From Idiomarina rhizosphaerae (GTDB lineage Bacteria; Pseudomonadota; Gammaproteobacteria; Enterobacterales; Alteromonadaceae), in contig NZ_JAMZDE010000007.1 of the NCBI RefSeq assembly GCF_024159085.1, forward strand, positions 124,001 through 188,000: DNA of 64,000 nt. Reading direction: 5' to 3'. The position numbers and the translations under genes are program-made. Each line of letters starts with the position of its first letter. Within the stretch, counting starts at the first letter, position 1. Shown here one piece after another: positions 2,157 to 61,546 of the stretch. Below the pieces are notes generated by a model that saw only the letters and a program-made list of their open reading frames with translations, ran no database searches and had not been told where the DNA came from.

Positions 2157-2183
2157 AGTCCATCTCTTGTTTATCCAGTTTAT

Positions 2184-3140
2184 TCACGGAGTTTCTGAAA
2201 CCGTCCCTCTTATTACTCTTTGTTCATGACGCAATTCGGTCATACAAGTATTCAATGAGTCGTATACTGCACACAAAAGGAATGCGTTTTCATCCTCTTC
2301 TTCCAGTCCCAGTCCGGGTAAAAGAGTATTCTTACAAACTCGTCGATCTGACCGACTGGAAAAATACACCGAGAAATAAGAATAAAGCGTATCCCTGTAG
2401 CGTTTAAATTCTTCCATGTTACTCAGGCGATCAGCCATCACATCAATAATACTATTCATAGTCACAAGTTTAGGAAAGTCACTAAGATTATCCTGGCCAC
2501 TAGCTCTCAACTCCTCAGCCGCTAAAGAGCACTTCTCTAATGTGGGTATCAGAGTGCGACTCACTTTTTTTACATTTCCTTCCAGTTCCTTGTTAGAAGA
2601 TGAAGAGCCGCTATAGAGAGAGAAATCACTTGAAACATCCTCGGAAAACTTCAGGTCTGACGCAGACCCCGCAAGGGCAATAAGCAGAATTTGTGAGTAA
2701 ATTCTCTCGCTCTGCTCTTCTGTGCGTGGTCGTATCGACATTAAATAAAGTTGGTCTACCAATTCCATTCCCGGCGGGCTTTCCAGTGATTGCCCCAGCT
2801 CAATAATCTCAGTCGGAGTCATACCGTGCACAATGTCACCTACCTCTTTTACTGCATAAGGCAAGGGCCGAAATACTTCCCCATGGGACCGATCAATCAC
2901 CATCAGGTTCAACGTTTGTATCATAGCTTCGTAGTCGGCTTTAGTCGTCGTGTAAGAAAGCTCGTCCAGCGACTGTGCTAATTTTTCATGAGAAGTTGTA
3001 TCCAGAGTGGCACCCGGAGAACTCTGAGCATAAGACTGAGGCGTAAAGCCAAGAACGCCTATCAAGAACGCTCCGAACATAAGCTGAGAACTGCATTTTA
3101 AAGCAGCAGACATTAATGTATCCGATAAAAAATTAGGCAT
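2184..3140 (-). CDS. Secreted protein of unknown function
   Basis: About 318 residues. I do not recognise the family. The ATG at 3140 is chosen because GGAGG lies six bases upstream; a GTG at 3167 in the same frame has no comparable site. An N-terminal hydrophobic segment ends near QSYAQ, which looks like a signal peptide cleavage site, so the protein is probably periplasmic. The rest is largely helical and acidic, with a Ser-rich stretch near residue 200 and four Cys residues scattered through the C-terminal half. It lies 66 bp downstream of the broken carbonic anhydrase gene and 27 bp upstream of the DUF2157-like gene, possibly one operon. Confidence 0.6.
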   Translation of the reverse strand: MPNFLSDTLMSAALKCSSQLMFGAFLIGVLGFTPQSYAQSSPGATLDTTSHEKLAQSLDELSYTTTKADYEAMIQTLNLMVIDRSHGEVFRPLPYAVKEVGDIVHGMTPTEIIELGQSLESPPGMELVDQLYLMSIRPRTEEQSERIYSQILLIALAGSASDLKFSEDVSSDFSLYSGSSSSNKELEGNVKKVSRTLIPTLEKCSLAAEELRASGQDNLSDFPKLVTMNSIIDVMADRLSNMEEFKRYRDTLYSYFSVYFSSRSDRRVCKNTLLPGLGLEEEDENAFLLCAVYDSLNTCMTELRHEQRVIRGTVSETP

Positions 3141-3206
3141 CTTCAGCCTCCAGTTTTCCAGCTTCACACTCTATAACTTACATCTACAATCGGATTACTG
3201 CCGCTA

Positions 3207-4072
3207 TTACTTTATTTCAGAAAGCAGTTCAGGGTTCGTTACTAAGTTTCTTACCCCATGAGCATGGTCTTCTTCAAAGACATTACCTTCGCACCAGTCA
3301 CCCACCGACTCAATATCAACTTTGGCGACTTTCGGGCGAACGCTCCAGGTAACCTGAAACGGCGAGCCTTTTTCATTATAGTTGGGTCCGGTAGTTGAAC
3401 CTGCGTATTCAACTGGCGTTCCGGTGTCCTCCGGAATATTCACTGCCTGATATAACCCGTCAACCAATTCGTGTTCGTTGAGCTCGCCAAAATCACCGGC
3501 GTCGTCATCATTCACCAGCACAAAAACCTGCGCTTCTACTCGCAACTGCGGGTTAACAACAGCATCGTTAAAGCACGCACCCAAGGTCGAACCTGGCTTT
3601 ATCTTAGCGGTTGAATAAACGTAATGAACTTCAATAGTGTCGCCTGAATAAAGGCTGCCGTGCTCGCTTGGGCAAACGTTCGAATCCTCTGGTTCTAGTT
3701 CATCCTCAGTTAACTGCCCTGAATATTCATAACCAGTAAAATAACCTTTTCCGTCGCCGTTCCCAGCGTATTTTGTAAATTCACCGCCTTTGTGCTCGGC
3801 ATTCTTGTGGAAATGAATATTGCACAGGCTCATCTCAGAAGACTCTGGTGCCTCGTTAAAGTTAAGAGTATTGCTACCACTAAAAGAGTCAATGTCACGC
3901 GGTGACTGGGCCCAAACCCTTTCCCCTCCGTATTTTCCGCCAGGTTAAGCCGCTGTTGCTCAATAACTTTATCCGACGCTTCCTCATGAGCACCCGACTG
4001 GTCATTCTCGGCGGCAACACTCAAGGGTAATACAACTAAGATTCCCAGCGTAAAAAGGTTATTCGTTTTCAT
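3207..4072 (-). pseudogene. Delta-class carbonic anhydrase, interrupted by a one-base frameshift
   Basis: Would convert CO2 to bicarbonate in the periplasm. The first part (start ATG at 4072, with GAGGAG seven bases upstream) encodes a signal peptide ending near LSVAA and a segment ending KGFGP at the GGGCCC of 3908-3913. From there the homologous reading continues in another frame as QSPRDID and on into the family core: CNIHFHKNAEHKG, GDTIEVHYVYS, NPQLRVEAQVFVLVND, GSTTGPNYN, QVTWSVRP and EDHAHGVRNLVT. Adding one C to the CCC run would restore one protein of about 288 residues. As written, the first frame stops at 3830, overlapping an ATG at 3833 as ATGA. Decay, a sequencing slip or real recoding are all possible. 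The family call is from memory of the delta-CA signature. Confidence 0.8.
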
Positions 4073-4177
4073 GGATTTACTCCTCAATGAGAGTGGTATC
4101 ACCCCAAATTCCGCGGTGACTTGGTATTCCATCTGCTAGAATAGTCGCTCACATCTGTATGCATTTCAATATATGGA

Positions 4178-6517: not shown

Positions 6518-6544
6518 ATATCCATTGCCAATGAAGGGAAAAGC

Positions 6545-6958
6545 CTAGCGGCTATAAGAAAATACTGCCAGTCGATTCCCTTCACTGTCCTCAAAACCAA
6601 AGCCCCTTGGAGCCCAATCATTAACGGGCTCAGGGATAGCTCCAAGGCTTGGAATTAGAGTAAGAAGATGTTGATGAAATCGTTCCAAATCATCTGTTTC
6701 GAAATCAATAACACTGTGTTCCGTGTTAGTAAATGTTGATTTAAATTTCAATCTAAATGAATCATCGGTCTTTACCAAAAGAATTTTTGCTGAAGATTCG
6801 ACAACTGCTTGAGGATGAAGCATCGCATGCCATTCGTCGGACCAGACACAATCGTACCTCAACGCCTTTTTATACCATTCGATTGCTCGTCGCAGATTAA
6901 ACACCGGTATCTCAATCGAGCCAATACATATTGTCGCCGAATTAATACTGCTATCCAT
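6545..6958 (-). CDS. VOC (glyoxalase/bleomycin-resistance) family protein
   Basis: A 137-residue single VOC domain, with IGSIEIPVFNLRRAIEWYKKAL at the N-terminus and GFGFEDSEGNRLAVFSY at the C-terminus, the usual ends of the paired beta-alpha-beta-beta-beta modules. Members act on or bind small molecules with help from a metal. The start at 6958 is chosen because AAGGAGG lies just upstream; an earlier in-frame ATG would overlap the preceding gene. It is the last gene of the methyltransferase-merR-VOC unit, 16 bp after merR, so it may act in the same drug or metabolite response. The substrate is unknown. Confidence 0.8.
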   Translation of the reverse strand: MDSSINSATICIGSIEIPVFNLRRAIEWYKKALRYDCVWSDEWHAMLHPQAVVESSAKILLVKTDDSFRLKFKSTFTNTEHSVIDFETDDLERFHQHLLTLIPSLGAIPEPVNDWAPRGFGFEDSEGNRLAVFSYSR

Positions 6959-6974
6959 CTTTTCCTCCTTAGAA

Positions 6975-8033
6975 TTAATTGGTTCCCTCTTCATTAAGAG
7001 CTTTCAATGCTTTTTGTAAAAACGTCAAAGTTTCATTTTTAAGCCAAGTACCTCGACATAGTTCAGGTTCAGACATCTGTACTTGACGGATCTCAGCCTG
7101 TGTTTCAGGATCAGATCCGGCATACCCCACAAATATTGACTCCCATTCCCGCGCTGCGGATAGCCCTTCTTCACTTTCCGGAGGAATCCCTTCTTCAAGC
7201 ATTTGATGAATACGGGCAAGAAGAAATGGCCACCGTTTCATCTGACGGGGATAACGATCAGCTAAGTAGGAGTATACTGAGGGCCTCAGATGCTGCTTAA
7301 ATATAGCTTGTTTATGATTCAAAAATGCCTGTTGAATAAAAGTAATTTGCTCATTATCAACGCCTAAGTAGGTCTGCAGAGCTTCTTCTCTCTCGGCCAT
7401 TACGGTAATTTTCCTGAGAAGTTCGGGATTACCGTCGGTATCCTGCTCTAACTGTTCCATCCAGCGTACAGCGAGATCCCAGCTTTTTGGATCGGTGGGC
7501 GGAATACCTTTCTCACGTAAAACTCTAAGCTCCTCCAACAATTGCCGCCAACGAATTTTGGTGGCTCGTTGACGAGTATAAAATCTCAATTTTTTTAACT
7601 CATCGCGAGTAAAATAACGCTCATAAGCGCAAATGAGTTCCAGAGTTTCCAGAAAAGTTTCGGTGTCAGGTTCTTCATTCTGCTCTAATAACTCCTGCAT
7701 GCGCCAGAGCTTCTCCCGCAAATCGATACCGGTAGTAATTCGTTGGTTAACAGCCGCGAGGTTATCTACAACTAGAGCTTTAATAGAATAGTTATTGCCG
7801 CCATTAAGGAGATCTTTTATTTCCGTTAAAGTAAGCCCTAAATTCTTCAATAACTGAATTCGTTGCAACCGAATGATGTCAGCTGAGGTATAAAGACGAT
7901 AGCCAGCGTCAGTACGCGACGACGGTTGCAACAGGCCAATCTCATCATAGTGGTGCAATGTCCTTACCGTAATACCTGCACGTTTGGCTAAAACCCCAGC
8001 TTGCATGCCACCGGAACCTACCGGACTGTTCAT
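6975..8033 (-). CDS. MerR-family regulator with two TipAS-like effector repeats
   Basis: A 352-residue transcription factor. Residues 11-80 are a MerR winged helix (VLAKRAGITVRTLHHYDEIGLL, then AGYRLYTSADIIRLQRI). The linker and dimerisation helix follow to about 125. The rest holds two similar modules, residues 161-237 and 267-343, each starting RW-x-x-LL, then an EGIPP or KGIPP turn and a conserved W, which resembles the TipAS-type ligand-binding fold. AGGGAGGAG precedes the ATG. It lies 36 bp after the methyltransferase gene, whose promoter has a MerR-type 19-bp spacer, so it is probably autoregulated and likely also controls the MipA unit at 9.1-10.8 kb. The ligand is unknown. Confidence 0.85.
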   Translation of the reverse strand: MNSPVGSGGMQAGVLAKRAGITVRTLHHYDEIGLLQPSSRTDAGYRLYTSADIIRLQRIQLLKNLGLTLTEIKDLLNGGNNYSIKALVVDNLAAVNQRITTGIDLREKLWRMQELLEQNEEPDTETFLETLELICAYERYFTRDELKKLRFYTRQRATKIRWRQLLEELRVLREKGIPPTDPKSWDLAVRWMEQLEQDTDGNPELLRKITVMAEREEALQTYLGVDNEQITFIQQAFLNHKQAIFKQHLRPSVYSYLADRYPRQMKRWPFLLARIHQMLEEGIPPESEEGLSAAREWESIFVGYAGSDPETQAEIRQVQMSEPELCRGTWLKNETLTFLQKALKALNEEGTN

Positions 8034-8069
8034 CCTATCTCCTCCCTACAGATTCGAATATGTTTAATC

Positions 8070-8924
8070 CTAAAGCTGCGCCACAATATAGCGAAAACCA
8101 CCACCAGCAATCTGTAAGCCGTCTTTACGACGGGAAAAATACCTTTGATTCAATTCACTTGAACCAAAAGTACGGACTTGAGGAAACCCCATAATCTTTA
8201 ATTCCTTTTCAAAATGGGTCGGATCGAACTGCGAACGCCACGGCTCACCCATTGCAGAAAAAACCTCTTCAGAAACTTTGACAATTGCCTGCTCAACCAC
8301 ATTCAATAACTCGGTTTTCACTCGATAATCAAAAATTAGACTCGAGCCTGGTGCTAGTTCTAATATCTGCGACAATAGTTGTCGAACTTGCTCTGCATTT
8401 AGATAAGGAATTAGTCCAAGGCAACTGATTGCTACAGGCTTACTTTTATCAAACCCATATTCAATCAAGTCACCAACCCAATTTTTTCGGCTTAGATCGG
8501 AAGGGACAAAATGTAAATTTTCCGGTACTTTAAGCCCTGACATCGAAAGCAAAGATTGCTTGTGATTTAACATTTCCGTACGGTCGATCTCGAATAAGTT
8601 AGCTCTGGGCAATTTTGTTCCCTGAGATAGACCAAAACTATCAAGGCCTGCACCAAGTAATAATACTTGCCTAACGCCGCTGGCAATCGCAGCACTTACA
8701 TACTCCTCGGCCAACAGAGAGCGGGCAACGATCCCCGCCCGCATTGAACGAGAGCCAGGCTCGTTATACTTATAGGGATCAGCAATAACAATATCCTTCA
8801 GTTCAGGTCCCAAAATAGGCAAAGCTAAAGGGTCATCAAGAACTATTGGTTCATCTAGTAACTGATGTATTGCTCTGGCAATAGCGACAGTATGTGCCGA
8901 ATCCTGAAAGTGAATTTTTCGCAT
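8070..8924 (-). CDS. Class I SAM-dependent methyltransferase, LCM/TIGR00027-like
   Basis: A 284-residue methyltransferase of the leucine carboxyl methyltransferase superfamily (PF04072-like). The SAM-binding GAGLDSFGL motif lies near residues 91-100, an EIDRTEML acidic strand follows near 137, and the N-terminal ARSLLAEEYV segment precedes the motif as usual for the family. Bacterial members often methylate small molecules such as polyketides, so a soluble tailoring or detoxifying role is possible, but the substrate cannot be read. AGGAG lies seven bases before the ATG. It is the first gene of the operon driven by the MerR-type promoter at 8955-8985. Confidence 0.82.
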   Translation of the reverse strand: MRKIHFQDSAHTVAIARAIHQLLDEPIVLDDPLALPILGPELKDIVIADPYKYNEPGSRSMRAGIVARSLLAEEYVSAAIASGVRQVLLLGAGLDSFGLSQGTKLPRANLFEIDRTEMLNHKQSLLSMSGLKVPENLHFVPSDLSRKNWVGDLIEYGFDKSKPVAISCLGLIPYLNAEQVRQLLSQILELAPGSSLIFDYRVKTELLNVVEQAIVKVSEEVFSAMGEPWRSQFDPTHFEKELKIMGFPQVRTFGSSELNQRYFSRRKDGLQIAGGGFRYIVAQL

Positions 8925-8954
8925 TCCTTTTCTCCTGCTCCATAAAAATTACAG

Positions 8955-8985
8955 AGCTTAAAGTCACACGCAACGTAAGGGTCAA
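8955..8985 (-). promoter_or_regulatory. MerR-type promoter, methyltransferase-merR-VOC operon
   Basis: On the minus strand, -35 TTGACC (8985-8980) and -10 TAAGCT (8960-8955) are separated by 19 bp, the over-long spacer typical of MerR-activated promoters. The spacer contains an imperfect dyad (CTTACG and CGTGTGA halves). It matches the promoter at 10816-10846 at 25 of 31 positions. The predicted transcript starts about 25 bases before the methyltransferase ATG. Confidence 0.75.
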
Positions 8986-9124
8986 CCGCTTTTTTTATAT
9001 GCATATCAACTTCAACTTTTTTATAGAATCAAAGCAAAACACTTAAAATTCTAAACAAATCCGTTTGTTCGTCAGCCTTTATTTCCCCCGAATAATTGAC
9101 AAAAAATCTCAAGCAAGTTTTAAC

Positions 9125-9478
9125 TTAAGCATCTTCGGTGCTAATACGTTTTCCGTAACGCCAACTGATAATAGCGGGTACAATAATGATTAACGGGGCA
9201 AACGCGATAAAAACGGTTAACACAGGAAAACTTTCAAACGGAATAAAAAACGTCACAATACCAAGTAAAACAAGCGGCACCGACCAGAGGATAAATTGCT
9301 TCCCTCCATAAGCGTTAATTTTGTACCAATTTTCTTCAGACTTAAATGCGCTACGAGTTCTTATTCCATAAACTGCGTTCATCTTTACTTTTCCCAAAAC
9401 CAAGGGAATAGCAAGAGCAATCATCAAAGCGGCAGTCAGAATATTAATTATGCCAAGAATAACGCTTGAAATATCCAC
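9125..9478 (-). CDS. SdpI-like small membrane protein
   Basis: A 117-residue protein with three or four membrane segments. The YGIRTRSAFKSEENWYKINAYGG loop between the first and second helix pairs is the hallmark of the SdpI/YhfL (DUF1648-related) group; in Bacillus, SdpI gives immunity to the SdpC toxin. The start is the GTG at 9478, which has AGGAGG six bases upstream; an earlier ATG at 9601 in the same frame would overlap the lipoprotein gene without a ribosome site. It is the last gene of the MipA-lipoprotein-SdpI unit. A role in envelope stress or toxin tolerance is an inference. Confidence 0.7.
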   Translation of the reverse strand: MDISSVILGIINILTAALMIALAIPLVLGKVKMNAVYGIRTRSAFKSEENWYKINAYGGKQFILWSVPLVLLGIVTFFIPFESFPVLTVFIAFAPLIIIVPAIISWRYGKRISTEDA

Positions 9479-9488
9479 TTTATTCCTC

Positions 9489-9845
9489 CTATTGAGAGTT
9501 ATTATTTGTGCATTTATATGCGTTTCCGAAAACTGTTGCGCTAAATGTTCCCCCGACACCATCGCTGTTATTACTTTGACTTTGATTTTGGAGAACGACA
9601 TAGTTAGCCCCTAGCTTTAATGCATTGTTACGGAGCTCATTTCTGGCTCCCTGCATCAAGTTTTTGTCTGATGTAATATCAGCAGTAATAACGTTTCCCT
9701 GGGCGCCACTAACCTCCCCCAAAAACTGGCATCCGGATGGCACCGGGTTACGCGTTAACAGTACCTTTTCAGCCCCCGCTATCATCGGTTTAGATGCGCA
9801 TCCAGTTAATGCAATCAAAAAGAAAAACGTGACGATAGTTTTCAT
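9489..9845 (-). CDS. DUF4156-like outer-membrane lipoprotein
   Basis: A 118-residue lipoprotein. The N-terminal signal ends in the lipobox LTGC, giving lipidation at Cys16; the +2 residue is Ala, so sorting to the outer membrane is expected. The mature part has two further Cys residues (in SGCQFLGEV and NAYKCTN) that could form a disulfide, and the NELRNNALKLGANYVVL helix-strand seen in DUF4156 and RcsF-like lipoproteins. AGGAG lies six bases before the ATG. It is 10 bp upstream of the SdpI-like gene and 81 bp downstream of the MipA-like gene. Its role is unknown. Confidence 0.78.
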   Translation of the reverse strand: MKTIVTFFFLIALTGCASKPMIAGAEKVLLTRNPVPSGCQFLGEVSGAQGNVITADITSDKNLMQGARNELRNNALKLGANYVVLQNQSQSNNSDGVGGTFSATVFGNAYKCTNNNSQ

Positions 9846-9926
9846 TTTTTTCTCCTAAGTAGAGTCGAATTTCGTATAAAAGGTTAAAACAAAACTTCAT
9901 GCTCTTCCGCTGTTGAATTAGGCTTA

Positions 9927-10757
9927 TCAGAACTTGTAGATGTAACCAAAAAACACATTATTTTCGGCAGAGCGGCCAATCAGCGGACTGTTTTTTATTT
10001 CCTTTGCCAGGCTTGTAACACTGAAATCTAAAATCAAAAGCTTATTCTGGCTGAACATATAACCAACCCGCGCTCCAACTTCCATATTGATAGCGGCCTC
10101 TCCCTTATAGAGAGCTCGATCAGCGTTCACTTCGTTTGCCTGAACGCCATAGTAGTAATCAACATAATTATCGTCGTGCCATTCGATTTCGACACGCGGA
10201 CTGAATGTATATTTCTTAGCAAAGTGCCAGGTTTTCTCAATACCCAAATTAAAACGAAGGCCTTCGCTGTCCCCGGCAACTTCACTCAAAAATTCTGCGC
10301 TAATATTAGCCAAACGACTCTTCCACTTTACTCCTGCACCAGCCCAGAAACCGCCTTTCCTATCTTCCATACCCTCAAGAATCCAGGTATCACTCTCGTC
10401 ATAATTATTAATACCGACCCTACCAATAAGACTAAAATCAAGCCTGTTGAAATTGCTAATCTCATAGCTTGGAAGCCTTAACCTCAGTTCAGGACCTGCT
10501 AACCGAATATATTGATTTTCAAATGTTAAAACAGGGACACCTAGATTCTTACGTTCGACATCTATATAAGCTTTTTGCTCGCTGTACACCCCTAAGCCCA
10601 GCCCCCAAGATGAATTAACTGTTTCCCGTTCTATTAATTGTTCTGCACCAACAGGCAAAGCACTTCCCAAAATGAGCAGTAAAATCGTTACTTTAGTAAA
10701 TACAAATTTGTAATATCGAAATAATAACCTGCAAGCCTCAAAAACTAGTGATGGCAT
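9927..10757 (-). CDS. MipA/OmpV family outer-membrane protein
   Basis: About 276 residues. After an N-terminal hydrophobic signal ending near VGAEQ comes a predicted beta-barrel of alternating residues ending in the aromatic C-terminal GYIYKF. The YYYGVQANEVNADRALYKGE segment and the SPLIGRS stretch near the end are features of MipA/OmpV proteins, which include an MltA-interacting scaffold and antibiotic- or osmolarity-induced porin-like proteins. The ATG at 10757 is preferred because AGGGAG lies seven bases upstream; an ATG two codons earlier lies too close to it. It leads the unit driven by the MerR-type promoter at 10816-10846. Confidence 0.75.
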   Translation of the reverse strand: MPSLVFEACRLLFRYYKFVFTKVTILLLILGSALPVGAEQLIERETVNSSWGLGLGVYSEQKAYIDVERKNLGVPVLTFENQYIRLAGPELRLRLPSYEISNFNRLDFSLIGRVGINNYDESDTWILEGMEDRKGGFWAGAGVKWKSRLANISAEFLSEVAGDSEGLRFNLGIEKTWHFAKKYTFSPRVEIEWHDDNYVDYYYGVQANEVNADRALYKGEAAINMEVGARVGYMFSQNKLLILDFSVTSLAKEIKNSPLIGRSAENNVFFGYIYKF

Positions 10758-10815
10758 AAACATACTCCCTGCAAAAAATATTGACGCATCTTCATCATCT
10801 TTAACTTCGTAAAGC

Positions 10816-10846
10816 AGATTAAAACCATACGCTACGTGAGGGTCAA
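10816..10846 (-). promoter_or_regulatory. MerR-type promoter of the MipA-lipoprotein-SdpI unit
   Basis: On the minus strand, -35 TTGACC (10846-10841) and -10 TAATCT (10821-10816) with a 19-bp spacer carrying a CCTCACG/CGTATGG dyad. It is a near copy of the promoter at 8955-8985, arguing that one MerR protein, most simply the one encoded at 6975-8033, controls both units. The predicted leader is about 50 bases. Confidence 0.75.
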
Positions 10847-10955
10847 CGGTCTTTTTTAACTGGAAACAGGTTGTTATTTCGGACGAATTAAAGTTCTGGA
10901 ATATACTGCCGATAACACTTGCAGGAATAAATTTTAACCTTCTGGAGAGAGTGCC

Positions 10956-11463: not shown

Positions 11464-12642
11464 TCAACTTTTCTTCTCTTGCAATCTAACCAGCTGACTT
11501 CCGGGGTGAAAGAGCTTCCAGGAGAACCAATATTCATCGGAAATAGCCACAGGAACCAGGTTCGATTCTATTTCGCCTTTTATAAACTTACCGCGAACAT
11601 TCCATATCGTTCCGCTTTTTGTGTCGCAAAGCGTGCTATTAGCACCGGGTTCAATACTCACCGACTCTCCCTCGACTGAGCTTTTAAATCCAAGAATAGA
11701 GCCGTTCACAGCGACAAGCACAACACCTAATTCTTCGTTGTTAACCACGCCCTGCTCTAATAACTCGTCTTTAAGGTACACAACTTGCGGGTTAGCGATT
11801 TTATCGGTAATGCCCACCATACGCGTTCGTGGCGAAAAGGTATTATCCCGGTTTTTTGATGCAAGCCCTGGGGTCAAACCATTCGCTATAACCTTGTTCC
11901 AAAGGCCCTTAACGGGAAGCTCAAACGCTTTAAAGTCCTGCTTTGTTACTCTAACGACCTTAGGACAGAGGTTTAGCTTTTTCACCTCACTCCAGGTTAA
12001 AACCTGAAACGGGATCATTGTTAGCGTATACGGGTGTAACTTGCCAATAACAGATTCACAACTGGCTTGCTGGAAAAAGGTTCTAGTTTTTTTGTCAGCC
12101 ACAATCATATTCGCATTTTTAAACGAACCGACAAACAAAGGGCCAATATCGGTGATATCGAAAGGAATAATACTGTGGCACATGGCGCAATAAGTTAACG
12201 CCACCAGTTTGTCGTCGAGACGATCATTAATAATGTGATGATGTATTACATAGTCCAGCGGGTACGCCTTAGTAACATCATTGTACTCAATAACAGCCAA
12301 CTCCATGTTGTCCTGAAGAGGAAGCTTCAGCGGATCATCTGTCATAGCGGGGAAATCCACAGCTTTAAACACGTTTTCCTGATGCATTCGATGCGCTAAT
12401 ACAACGGCCAACGCCATTAGGATAATAGGAAACAATGTCCACAAAGGGAACTCACCCACTTGCCAGGTAATTAACAAGGAGGCAACGATACCGGCAGCAA
12501 ACACACTCCAGGTTATAGGCTTTCTGATGAAGTAATGATAATACGACCACTGAACAGGAAACGCCTGAATAAGCGTCATGTAAATAGCAGCAGATCCCAC
12601 TGCCAAAGACAAAACAGCGAGTGCATAAAAAATAAATACCAT
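11464..12642 (-). CDS. DUF3179-domain membrane protein
   Basis: 392 residues. Three hydrophobic segments within residues 1-85 anchor the protein; the remaining domain carries the DUF3179 signature: AYPLDYVIHHHIINDRL, ALTYCAMCHSIIPFD with its CxxC pair, a GPLFVGSFKNANMIVADKKT run, the FFQQASCESVIGKL segment, and a C-terminal Trp-rich end. Members are poorly understood and often periplasmic or membrane-tethered. The start at 12642 is 168 bp from the divergent TonB receptor start, and the Fur box between them lies about 105 bp upstream of this gene, so shared iron control is possible. Confidence 0.8.
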   Translation of the reverse strand: MVFIFYALAVLSLAVGSAAIYMTLIQAFPVQWSYYHYFIRKPITWSVFAAGIVASLLITWQVGEFPLWTLFPIILMALAVVLAHRMHQENVFKAVDFPAMTDDPLKLPLQDNMELAVIEYNDVTKAYPLDYVIHHHIINDRLDDKLVALTYCAMCHSIIPFDITDIGPLFVGSFKNANMIVADKKTRTFFQQASCESVIGKLHPYTLTMIPFQVLTWSEVKKLNLCPKVVRVTKQDFKAFELPVKGLWNKVIANGLTPGLASKNRDNTFSPRTRMVGITDKIANPQVVYLKDELLEQGVVNNEELGVVLVAVNGSILGFKSSVEGESVSIEPGANSTLCDTKSGTIWNVRGKFIKGEIESNLVPVAISDEYWFSWKLFHPGSQLVRLQEKKS

Positions 12643-12746
12643 AGCGTTCTCTCAGTTAGAGCAAAAAACGGTACATGCCATTACCGAAGTAAACACCATC
12701 TCATTGAGTAAAGCCATAGCGGCAATAGCTCCCCCTTAAACGAAAT

Positions 12747-15174: not shown

Positions 15175-16323
15175 ATGAGCAGTACTTTTTATATTCCAGC
15201 GGTCAATATTATCGGCGAGAATGCCCTTAAAGATGCGGCCACGCAAATTGATAACTATGGCTTTAAACAAGCCTTGATAGTCACCGACCCCGGCATGACC
15301 AAACTGGGCGTTACTGCCGAAATCGAAGCCCTGCTAAAAGAGCATGGAATAGACAGTCTGGTTTACGATGGCGTACAACCCAACCCGACAGTGACGAACG
15401 TTAAAGCCGGGCTAGATGTTCTGCAGAAGCATCAATGCGATTGTGTTATTTCACTTGGTGGTGGTTCAGCTCACGACTGCGCCAAGGGCATAGCACTGGT
15501 TGCCACTAATGGCGCGCAAATTGGCGACTATGAGGGTGTTGATGTCTCGAAAAAGCCACAACTGCCACTCATTAGTATTAATACCACCGCAGGCACAGCA
15601 TCTGAAATGACCCGCTTCTGCATCATTACCGATCCGGAACGCCATATTAAAATGGCAATTGTCGACCAAAACGTGACACCTATTCTTTCTGTTAACGACC
15701 CAAGATTAATGGTCGGCATGCCTGCCAGCTTGACTGCAGCAACGGGTATGGATGCTTTGACGCATGCCGTTGAAGCTTATGTATCTACCGACGCTACGCC
15801 GATTACCGATGCCTGTGCCATAAAAGCCATAGAGATTATCCGGGACAATCTTCACGAAGCGGTTCATAACGGAGCAAATATGGAAGCTCGTGAGCAAATG
15901 GCTTACGCACAGTTCCTGGCGGGCATGGCGTTTAACAATGCGTCTCTCGGTTATGTACATGCCATGGCCCACCAACTCGGCGGATTCTACGATTTACCGC
16001 ACGGTGTCTGTAACGCGGTTTTATTGCCTCATGTGCAACGCTACAACAGTCAGGTTATCGCACCGCGCCTGAAAGACATTGGTAAAGCACTGGGCGCAGA
16101 AGTACAGGGATTAACAGACAAAGAAGGTGCTGATGCTGCTATTGCCGCCATTGTCGAACTGTCTCAAAGCGTTAATATTCCGGCTGGTCTGGAAGAACTG
16201 GGGGCAAAAGAAGAGGACTTTAGTACATTGGCAGACAATGCGATGAAAGACGCTTGTGGCCTGACTAATCCAATTCAACCCAGTCACGAAGACGTTGTTG
16301 CTATTTTTAAAGCGGCTTTTTAA
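15175..16323 (+). CDS. Iron-containing alcohol dehydrogenase (group III)
   Basis: NAD(P)-dependent oxidoreductase that interconverts alcohols and aldehydes in the cytoplasm. The 382 residues are full length and resemble Zymomonas AdhB, AdhE C-terminal and YiaY enzymes. The nucleotide-binding SLGGGSAHD lies at residues 93-101. The metal ligands fit Asp193 and His197 ([12 protein letters not shown]), His262 ([12 protein letters not shown]) and His276 (LPHGVCN). AAGG lies upstream of the ATG. It stands alone between the TonB receptor hairpin and the convergent 138-residue gene. The physiological substrate cannot be told. Confidence 0.9.
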
Positions 16324-16339
16324 CCGGAGTCACCGAAAC

Positions 16340-16756
16340 TTAACTGCTCAGGATCGGGCCACCTATGGAGGTGGCTTGATCCTCAATGCTCTTGTGCATA
16401 AACATAAGCTGGCGCAACTTGCAGGCTTCGCGCAGCAGAGCTATAGCCGCAGGGTGATCTGACGAAAGCGTATTCTGTAGCTGCTGAAAATTATGTAATG
16501 TCCTACTTAACAGAGAAATGCCACAATTCACGCGATTTTGACGATGATATGTCTCAGACAAATTCTGCACCGCAATTGACAGGCAAATAATAACCTCGCC
16601 AGCCTGCTCGTTCTGGTGTTTCAGAATATCACTCAAGTGTTCTCGTAGCAGGAGAATGCTATTCATATAGTAATGATTGGCATTTTGCCATTGCCCCTGC
16701 TCAAACTCATAATTACCCATACGCTGTAACACTTTCCAATTCTGAATGAGTTCCAT
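16340..16756 (-). CDS. Small helical protein of unknown function, divergent from sodA
   Basis: A 138-residue all-helical protein with no signal peptide. Its N-terminal YEFEQGQWQNANHYYMNSI looks like a tetratricopeptide-type helix pair, and three Cys residues are scattered through it. I do not recognise the family. AGGAGG lies five bases before the ATG. The Fur box at 16810-16824 lies 54 bp upstream of its start and also precedes sodA in the other direction, so it is probably iron-repressed. Pseudomonas has a small unknown gene next to its Fur-regulated sodA; whether this is related needs comparison. Confidence 0.7.
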   Translation of the reverse strand: MELIQNWKVLQRMGNYEFEQGQWQNANHYYMNSILLLREHLSDILKHQNEQAGEVIICLSIAVQNLSETYHRQNRVNCGISLLSRTLHNFQQLQNTLSSDHPAAIALLREACKLRQLMFMHKSIEDQATSIGGPILSS

Positions 16757-16809
16757 AGCAACCTCCTGTGTTGTTCATCAGCATGCCTTGCAATTTAAAT
16801 AAATGCAAA

Positions 16810-16824
16810 TGATAATAATTATCG
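16810..16824 (+). promoter_or_regulatory. Fur box before sodA-ZIP operon
   Basis: TGATAATAATTATCG matches the 7-1-7 Fur repeat except at the last base. It lies 27 bp before the sodA ATG and 54 bp before the divergent 138-residue gene, placing both under probable iron repression. Confidence 0.88.
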
Positions 16825-16850
16825 TTACATTAACTAATCAGGAGTTAACT

Positions 16851-17459
16851 ATGTCATTTGAATTACCTGCGTTACCCTATACTTACGATGCCCTTGAACC
16901 TCATGTTGATGCCATGACAATGGAAATTCACCATCAGCGACATCACCAGAACTATGTCAACGGTCTAAACCAAGTGCTGGCCGACACCCGTTACGAAAAA
17001 TGGGACTTATCTGAACTGTTACGACAAATTCAGAGTATACCTAGTAATATGCAGTCTGCAGTGCGTAATCATGGTGGGGGTCATGCTAACCACTCATTGT
17101 TCTGGCAAGTTATGTCACCTCAGGGCGGTGGCAAGCCAACGGGCAAACTGGCTAAAGCCATAGAGAGCGACATTGGTAGCTTTCAGAATTTCAAAGAGCA
17201 ATTCACTCAGGCAGCGGTCAGTCGGTTTGGTAGCGGCTGGGCCTGGTTAGTGCTTAATGCTAACGGACAACTTGAAATAACCAGTACAGCCAATCAGGAT
17301 AGTCCTTTAATGGATGGACTGACTCCCATACTAGGATTGGATGTATGGGAACACGCATACTATTTAAAGTATCAGAACAAACGTGCAGACTATATTGCAG
17401 CATTTTATGAAGTGATTCACTGGCCGGAAGTTGCCAGACGTTTTGAGGAGAATAAATGA
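16851..17459 (+). CDS. sodA: Superoxide dismutase, manganese type
   Basis: Converts superoxide to oxygen and hydrogen peroxide in the cytoplasm. 202 residues. Metal ligands fit His27, His81, Asp164 and His168 (LDVWEHAYY). GGGHANHS around 75-82 and Gln149 in STANQDSP are the features of Mn rather than Fe enzymes. The ATG at 16851 has AGGAG seven bases upstream and begins at the standard SFELPALPY, so it is preferred over an earlier ATG in frame. The Fur box just upstream fits induction under iron lack, when a Mn enzyme replaces the Fe form. It overlaps the ZIP gene by four bases. Confidence 0.93.
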
Positions 17460-60772: not shown

Positions 60773-61546
60773 TTATTCCTCTATCCGAGTTTCTATGCCT
60801 TGCATTAGCACGGTTAGTTGTTCGCTTGTTAAACCAAAGCGGCGTTCCCGTTGCGCAAAATCTGTAATTGCCTGAGCAAAGGCCGTATCGTCAAAATCGG
60901 GCCATAATACTGAGGTGAAATACAGTTCGGCATAAGCCAACTGCCATAAAAGAAAGTTACTGATACGATGTTCACCGCCTGTACGAATGAGTAAGTCCGG
61001 CAAAGGCTGGTCTGCCATCATCAATTCGCCTGCTATTGTCTGTTCAGTAATTTCTGTCGGCTCTATTTCACCAGCTTTCACTTTCTCAGCTAATTTACGA
61101 CTGGCTTGCGTAATGTCCCACTGACCGCCGTAGTTCGCCGCTATGTTCAGATTGAGTCCGCTGTTACTTTGCGTTTGCTCTTCTGCTTCGCTCATGCGCT
61201 TTTGCAAACGCTTTGAAAAAGCCTCTTTGTCACCAACTATGCGCAAGCGAATATCGTTGTCATCTAATTTTTTAATTTCGCTTTTCAGCACTGACATAAA
61301 CAGTTCCATCAATACCGATACTTCAGTGGCCGGACGCTTCCAGTTTTCACTACTAAATGCGAACAAAGTCAGTGACTCAATACCGTTACGGCGAGCAAAG
61401 GCAACAGCCTTGCGCACTGCTTCTGCGCCCGCTTTATGACCAAAGGTTCTTATTTTACCGCGTTGTTTCGCCCAGCGCCCGTTACCATCCATTATAATGG
61501 CAACATGCTTGGGGACTAACTGCTCAATTGACGGTAATTCTTTCAT
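60773..61546 (-). CDS. uppS: Undecaprenyl diphosphate synthase
   Basis: Cis-prenyltransferase that extends farnesyl diphosphate to the C55 carrier for cell wall and O-antigen. 257 residues: [17 protein letters not shown] near 14-30 with the catalytic Asp, [28 protein letters not shown] and the C-terminal [35 protein letters not shown] terminator separates it from frr upstream. Confidence 0.97.

Follow-up and report, generated by a model that had tools for sequence, protein, structure and literature searches.

A delta-class carbonic anhydrase gene on the minus strand of the Idiomarina rhizosphaerae DNA analyzed here (positions 4072-3207) is split over two reading frames that differ by one base. 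The whole stretch of 64,000 nucleotides is referred to as the window (contig NZ_JAMZDE010000007.1, positions 124,001 to 188,000). With a probability of about 0.72, we read the split gene as an ordinary and probably recent pseudogene that arose by frameshift from an enzyme gene acquired horizontally. Most likely the break is an ordinary mutation that abolished function, as opposed to a signal for special decoding. According to the proposed history, horizontal transfer would have brought in a periplasmic delta-class carbonic anhydrase, whose gene would recently have lost its function through a one-base frameshift in the sequenced strain. Translation from 4072 would produce the 55 residues that belong to the enzyme, followed by a tail unrelated to it that stops at 3830. 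The catalytic core would be left in the other frame and would not be exported. Enzyme activity has presumably been lost, and the intact protein would formerly have been periplasmic. Within a marine genus of small genomes, an accessory carbonic anhydrase appears to have been gained here and soon lost. The analysis also removes a possible false lead to recoding.

Layout of the Split Gene

The first frame begins with an ATG at 4072-4070 that is preceded by GAGGAG, and it runs for 80 codons to a TGA at 3832-3830. By eye, it encodes a signal peptide, which is followed by a linker, the residues KGFGP and then unrelated residues. The second frame contains QSPRDID and the entire core, and it extends from 3908 to a TAA at 3209-3207. 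The two frames diverge at GGGCCC (3908-3913), where they part by one base as an earlier note on this DNA had placed the break, and the coordinates given there hold. The split between the frames was graded far beyond chance. The TGA overlaps an ATG (3833-3831) to form ATGA, an overlap that the same note had reported and that is indeed present. The features are as follows.

3908..4072, minus strand: N-terminal piece with signal peptide, linker and KGFGP (translation; alignment to relatives; GAGGAG upstream of the ATG)
3908..3913, minus strand: GGGCCC, where the frames part by one base (frame translations)
3830..3907, minus strand: out-of-frame tail of the first open reading frame (ORF), ending with TGA 3832-3830 (translation)
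3207..3908, minus strand: core of the carbonic anhydrase, beginning at QSPRDID and running to the stop, second frame, PF10563 (Pfam and translation)
3831..3833, minus strand: ATG for the family-conserved Met, overlapping the TGA; a start here would give a 208-aa core lacking the signal peptide
2158..4104, no strand: two-gene block with no counterpart at this site in G005, the nearest genome examined (genome alignment)
2184..3167, minus strand: 327-aa protein with no Pfam family, the second gene of the block

Family Identity and Conservation of the Core

The core frame matches the Pfam family PF10563 "Delta carbonic anhydrase" (CA_like) with an E-value of 4.1e-80. The match spans profile positions 2-181 of 181 and scores 268.6 bits against a Pfam cut-off of 26.3. 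This nearly full-length match confirms the delta-class identity that had been proposed from the letters alone. The 80-aa first frame on its own matched no Pfam family. In all 117 distinct open-core relatives, the in-frame sequence upstream of the core aligns to its first 55 residues. The local scores have a median of 98 and range from 26 to 154, those at the low end being weak.

The core is well kept. At columns conserved in at least 95% of sequences it departs at one of 95, an Asn to Ser change beside the Met; these are the 96 columns at that threshold minus the first residue of the piece, which precedes the true frame. Across 118 sequences, the median number of departures at such columns is 1, and 98 have two or fewer. 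At a 99% threshold (57 columns) the window copy departs at two columns, one of which is the artefactual first residue, while the median is 0 and 114 of 118 sequences depart at two or fewer. The same two departures are seen at a 90% threshold (122 columns), where the median is 3. Within the QSPRD motif, Q2, P4, and R5 are invariant in 48 sequences. The core therefore has the conserved residues of a delta-class enzyme, and the gene as assembled is a broken member of the class because no single open frame runs from signal peptide to core.

The earlier claim that all sequence after the break is intact is borne out, as 94 of the 95 comparable strongly conserved columns are kept. With a single departure and little other decay, the damage looks recent. 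The choice between recent damage and an assembly error that had been put forward also holds. We read the gene as having been under selection until recently, with close relatives that are unsampled.

A sequence search of solved structures found no relative of the protein. Fold matches to alpha-type carbonic anhydrases (nearly all of the 50 rows listed) were set aside as too weak, at E 1.8e-3 or weaker. Their TM-scores on the query range from 0.22 to 0.28, and the query model has a mean pLDDT of 71.

The Junction in Relatives

The junction was inspected in 95 loci, of which 80 come from named genome contigs (the best 80 of at least 519) and 15 from elsewhere; at least three genes are present twice among them. 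The residues G-[FYV]-[GS]-P-Q-[SAT]-P-R are contiguous in a single frame in 95 of 95 loci, and at least 32 in-frame residues lie upstream of the junction in every one. Two of these loci, L012 and L016, represent one gene of genome G022 that is intact at the junction and broken further on. Adding 27 more loci from the taxonomic family gives 122, of which 120 have an open core of at least 150 codons (117 of them distinct); L012 and L016 are the only exceptions. As judged from the 95 inspected junctions, the split is not a family feature.

Probable Acquisition and Genomic Setting

The gene is the sole copy of the delta-class family in its own genome. Among 19 genomes of the genus the family is present only in the window's own and is missing from all 18 others examined, and 76 of 295 genomes of the taxonomic family, the window's own included, have a match. 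The nearest genome, G005, is a single contig of 2,839,318 bases in which the neighboring genes show 93.8% and 98.1% DNA identity. Only 9 bases separate the two flank alignments in G005 where the window has the 1.95-kb block at 2158-4104. The block comprises the carbonic anhydrase and the 327-aa protein without a Pfam match. The latter occurs in two of the 295 family genomes, the window's own and, as a weak partial match, G016; it does not accompany the enzyme in the other fetched loci, where apart from the window's own genome it hit only one weak stretch of G016. Acquisition by the window's lineage is the simplest reading of the empty site. The preference for insertion here over loss in G005 rests on the absence of the gene from the 18 other genus genomes examined.

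A tree was built from the best-matching loci of both searches, and its bootstrap had not settled. The window copy falls outside the rows fetched from its own taxonomic family. Its smallest well-supported set has nine rows (support 95/94), among them Marinobacterium, Marinicella, Marinobacter, an Olavius endosymbiont, Desulforhopalus, Candidatus Venteria, and two further gammaproteobacteria. Because the copy is placed among bacteria of other families, the gene was probably acquired horizontally. At 0.47, the terminal branch leading to the window copy is long (the median is 0.17), and six other rows equal or exceed it. This length could reflect an older relaxation or merely missing close relatives.

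Plasmids were considered as a near source and rejected. Only 8 of 72,556 plasmid records have a relative, the best of which is only 69.6% identical; seven of the eight are annotated "delta-class carbonic anhydrase." On the Marinobacter adhaerens plasmid pHP-187 (L107, 2001-2273) there is a partial delta-class match in two pieces, and the PLSDB table, which is itself incomplete, lists no gene in that region. A search of viral contigs with two patterns gave 45 stretches that matched one or the other, none of which encodes a relative.

Other differences from G005 lie nearby. A stretch of about 4.4 kb at 6518-10932 holds genes for a glyoxalase-like protein, a MerR-type regulator and an LCM-type methyltransferase, and G005 has about 100 bases in its stead. 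Another block, with a TonB-dependent receptor (L103, 7716-10134, reaching window position 1133), is also missing at this place in G005, which suggests that the region gathers accessory genes.

Possible Dispensability of the Enzyme

Six of the 76 matching genomes of the taxonomic family show only interrupted or partial copies (G022, G312, G291, G286, G306, and G186), and G292 has one further partial copy without a stop. The query for this count was the core alone, with which junction breaks would not show; the G022 copy was inspected directly. These copies suggest that the enzyme can be dispensable. A beta-class carbonic anhydrase is encoded elsewhere in the window's genome and could cover the housekeeping need, and no alpha-class enzyme was found there. 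A second delta-class copy that might excuse the loss was sought in the genome and not found. Two other genomes do have paired genes: in G025 two delta-class carbonic anhydrase genes lie side by side (L004 and L015), and in G309 two lie about 1 kb apart.

Real Mutation or Assembly Error

The chief rival to the pseudogene reading is an assembly or base-calling error, in which case the gene would be intact in the cell and would make a normal periplasmic delta-class carbonic anhydrase. We regard this as unlikely, at a level that still deserves serious weight. A lone one-base change in a gene whose core and N-terminal piece are otherwise well kept has the look of an error. Three observations speak against it. 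The first is the state of the rest of the window. ORFs of at least 100 codons were compared between the window and G005 and paired at 70% identity or more. In 61 of the 65 pairs the agreement spans 90% or more of each ORF, and the union of these pairs covers 50,932 window bases, antisense ORFs included. No second frameshift was seen over these roughly 51 kb of comparable ORFs, a span that excludes blocks with no counterpart in G005, and no G005 ORF of at least 100 codons is split in the window. Two of the four other pairs, at 11467-12651, come from the two strands of a single gene, which is broken up in G005 and not in the window. In the third, the only difference is that the frame in G005 stays open for longer ahead of the start, and the fourth (61134-61436, plus strand) lies opposite a 257-aa ORF at 60773-61546. 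At 11467-12651, the minus strand of the window has an open frame of 395 codons where G005 has two frames (L102, about 16247-17420).

The second observation is the site itself, which has no run of more than three identical bases. The nearest longer run, four G, is 13 bases upstream, and the longest in the gene, of five, is located away from the break. The third is that the genus can dispense with the gene, and real losses are expected in such genes. The absence of a second frameshift in the compared ORFs, the lack of a long run at the site and the dispensability of the gene favor, without proving, a real mutation in the DNA of the cell over an assembly artefact.

Possible Restart at the ATGA Overlap

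Ribosomes that finish the first frame might start again at the ATG overlapping its stop, which would give a cytoplasmic core of 208 aa. We consider this very improbable. The overlap lies exactly at the end of the first frame, and the core that would be made is well kept. A structure model of moderate quality (mean pLDDT 71.1) is also compatible with a restart. In the model the first strand begins at residue 28, one past Met 27, and the QSPRDID stretch has pLDDT below 50; residues 21-30 average 90, and a few residues before Met 27 are also confidently placed. A restart product might fold, but it would have neither the export signal nor the conserved QSPRD.

The earlier suggestion of coupled synthesis does not stand. 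ATGA is found at the same Met in 115 of the 117 open-core relatives, because the Met-Asn pair is nearly invariant; it did not arise for a restart, and we reject ATGA coupling as a designed feature. The Met column has Met in 117 of 118 sequences, and the residue after it is nearly invariably Asn (Ser in the window). When the alternative frame is read in the 117 relatives, the first stop is the ATGA in 64; it comes earlier in 52 and later in a single one. At the distance usual for a Shine-Dalgarno sequence, nothing resembling one precedes 3833, the closest being a GAGG whose end lies 17 bases upstream, whereas the true start at 4072 has its GAGGAG. A trace of reinitiation at 3833 is possible. 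That reinitiation yields a signal-less core working in the cytoplasm, with the one-base change having relocated a periplasmic enzyme, is a shade less credible still.

Programmed Frameshifting or Slippage as an Unlikely Reading

The least probable reading, and a very unlikely one, is that programmed frameshifting or transcriptional slippage joins both frames. The meeting of two well-kept frames inside a conserved motif would fit such a mechanism, and a recoding site was among the options raised earlier. None of the 95 inspected loci is shifted at the junction, there is no long run, and inspection found no X-XXY-YYZ heptamer in phase even though each codon at the site is a homogeneous triplet. 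Between the site and the stop, the 86 bases of RNA fold more weakly than the shuffle mean (z 0.99), and 174 of 200 shuffles equal or better them. Taken together, these results make recoding very unlikely, as the slippery site, stimulatory structure and conservation in relatives that mark programmed -1 frameshifting are all missing here.

Comparison with Known Systems

By its abstract, one survey covers the alpha, beta, and gamma carbonic anhydrase classes (PMC13098186). The delta class is represented by TweCA-delta of the diatom Thalassiosira weissflogii, which by name belongs to the same class as the window gene (PMC6009927). It is a characterized eukaryotic enzyme. A further comparison is with the PF10563 delta-class enzymes. 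The His, Cys, and Gln positions conserved in them are likewise conserved in the window copy, which is 68-75% identical to the best 80 loci from named genomes, of at least 519. The window gene differs from them in having its signal peptide and core in different frames.

No difference was found between the window gene and frameshifted pseudogenes of recently acquired accessory genes. Such pseudogenes have a single one-base break and are otherwise well kept, as is the case here. The window gene is likewise missing from the 18 other genomes of its genus that were examined, and its empty site is known.
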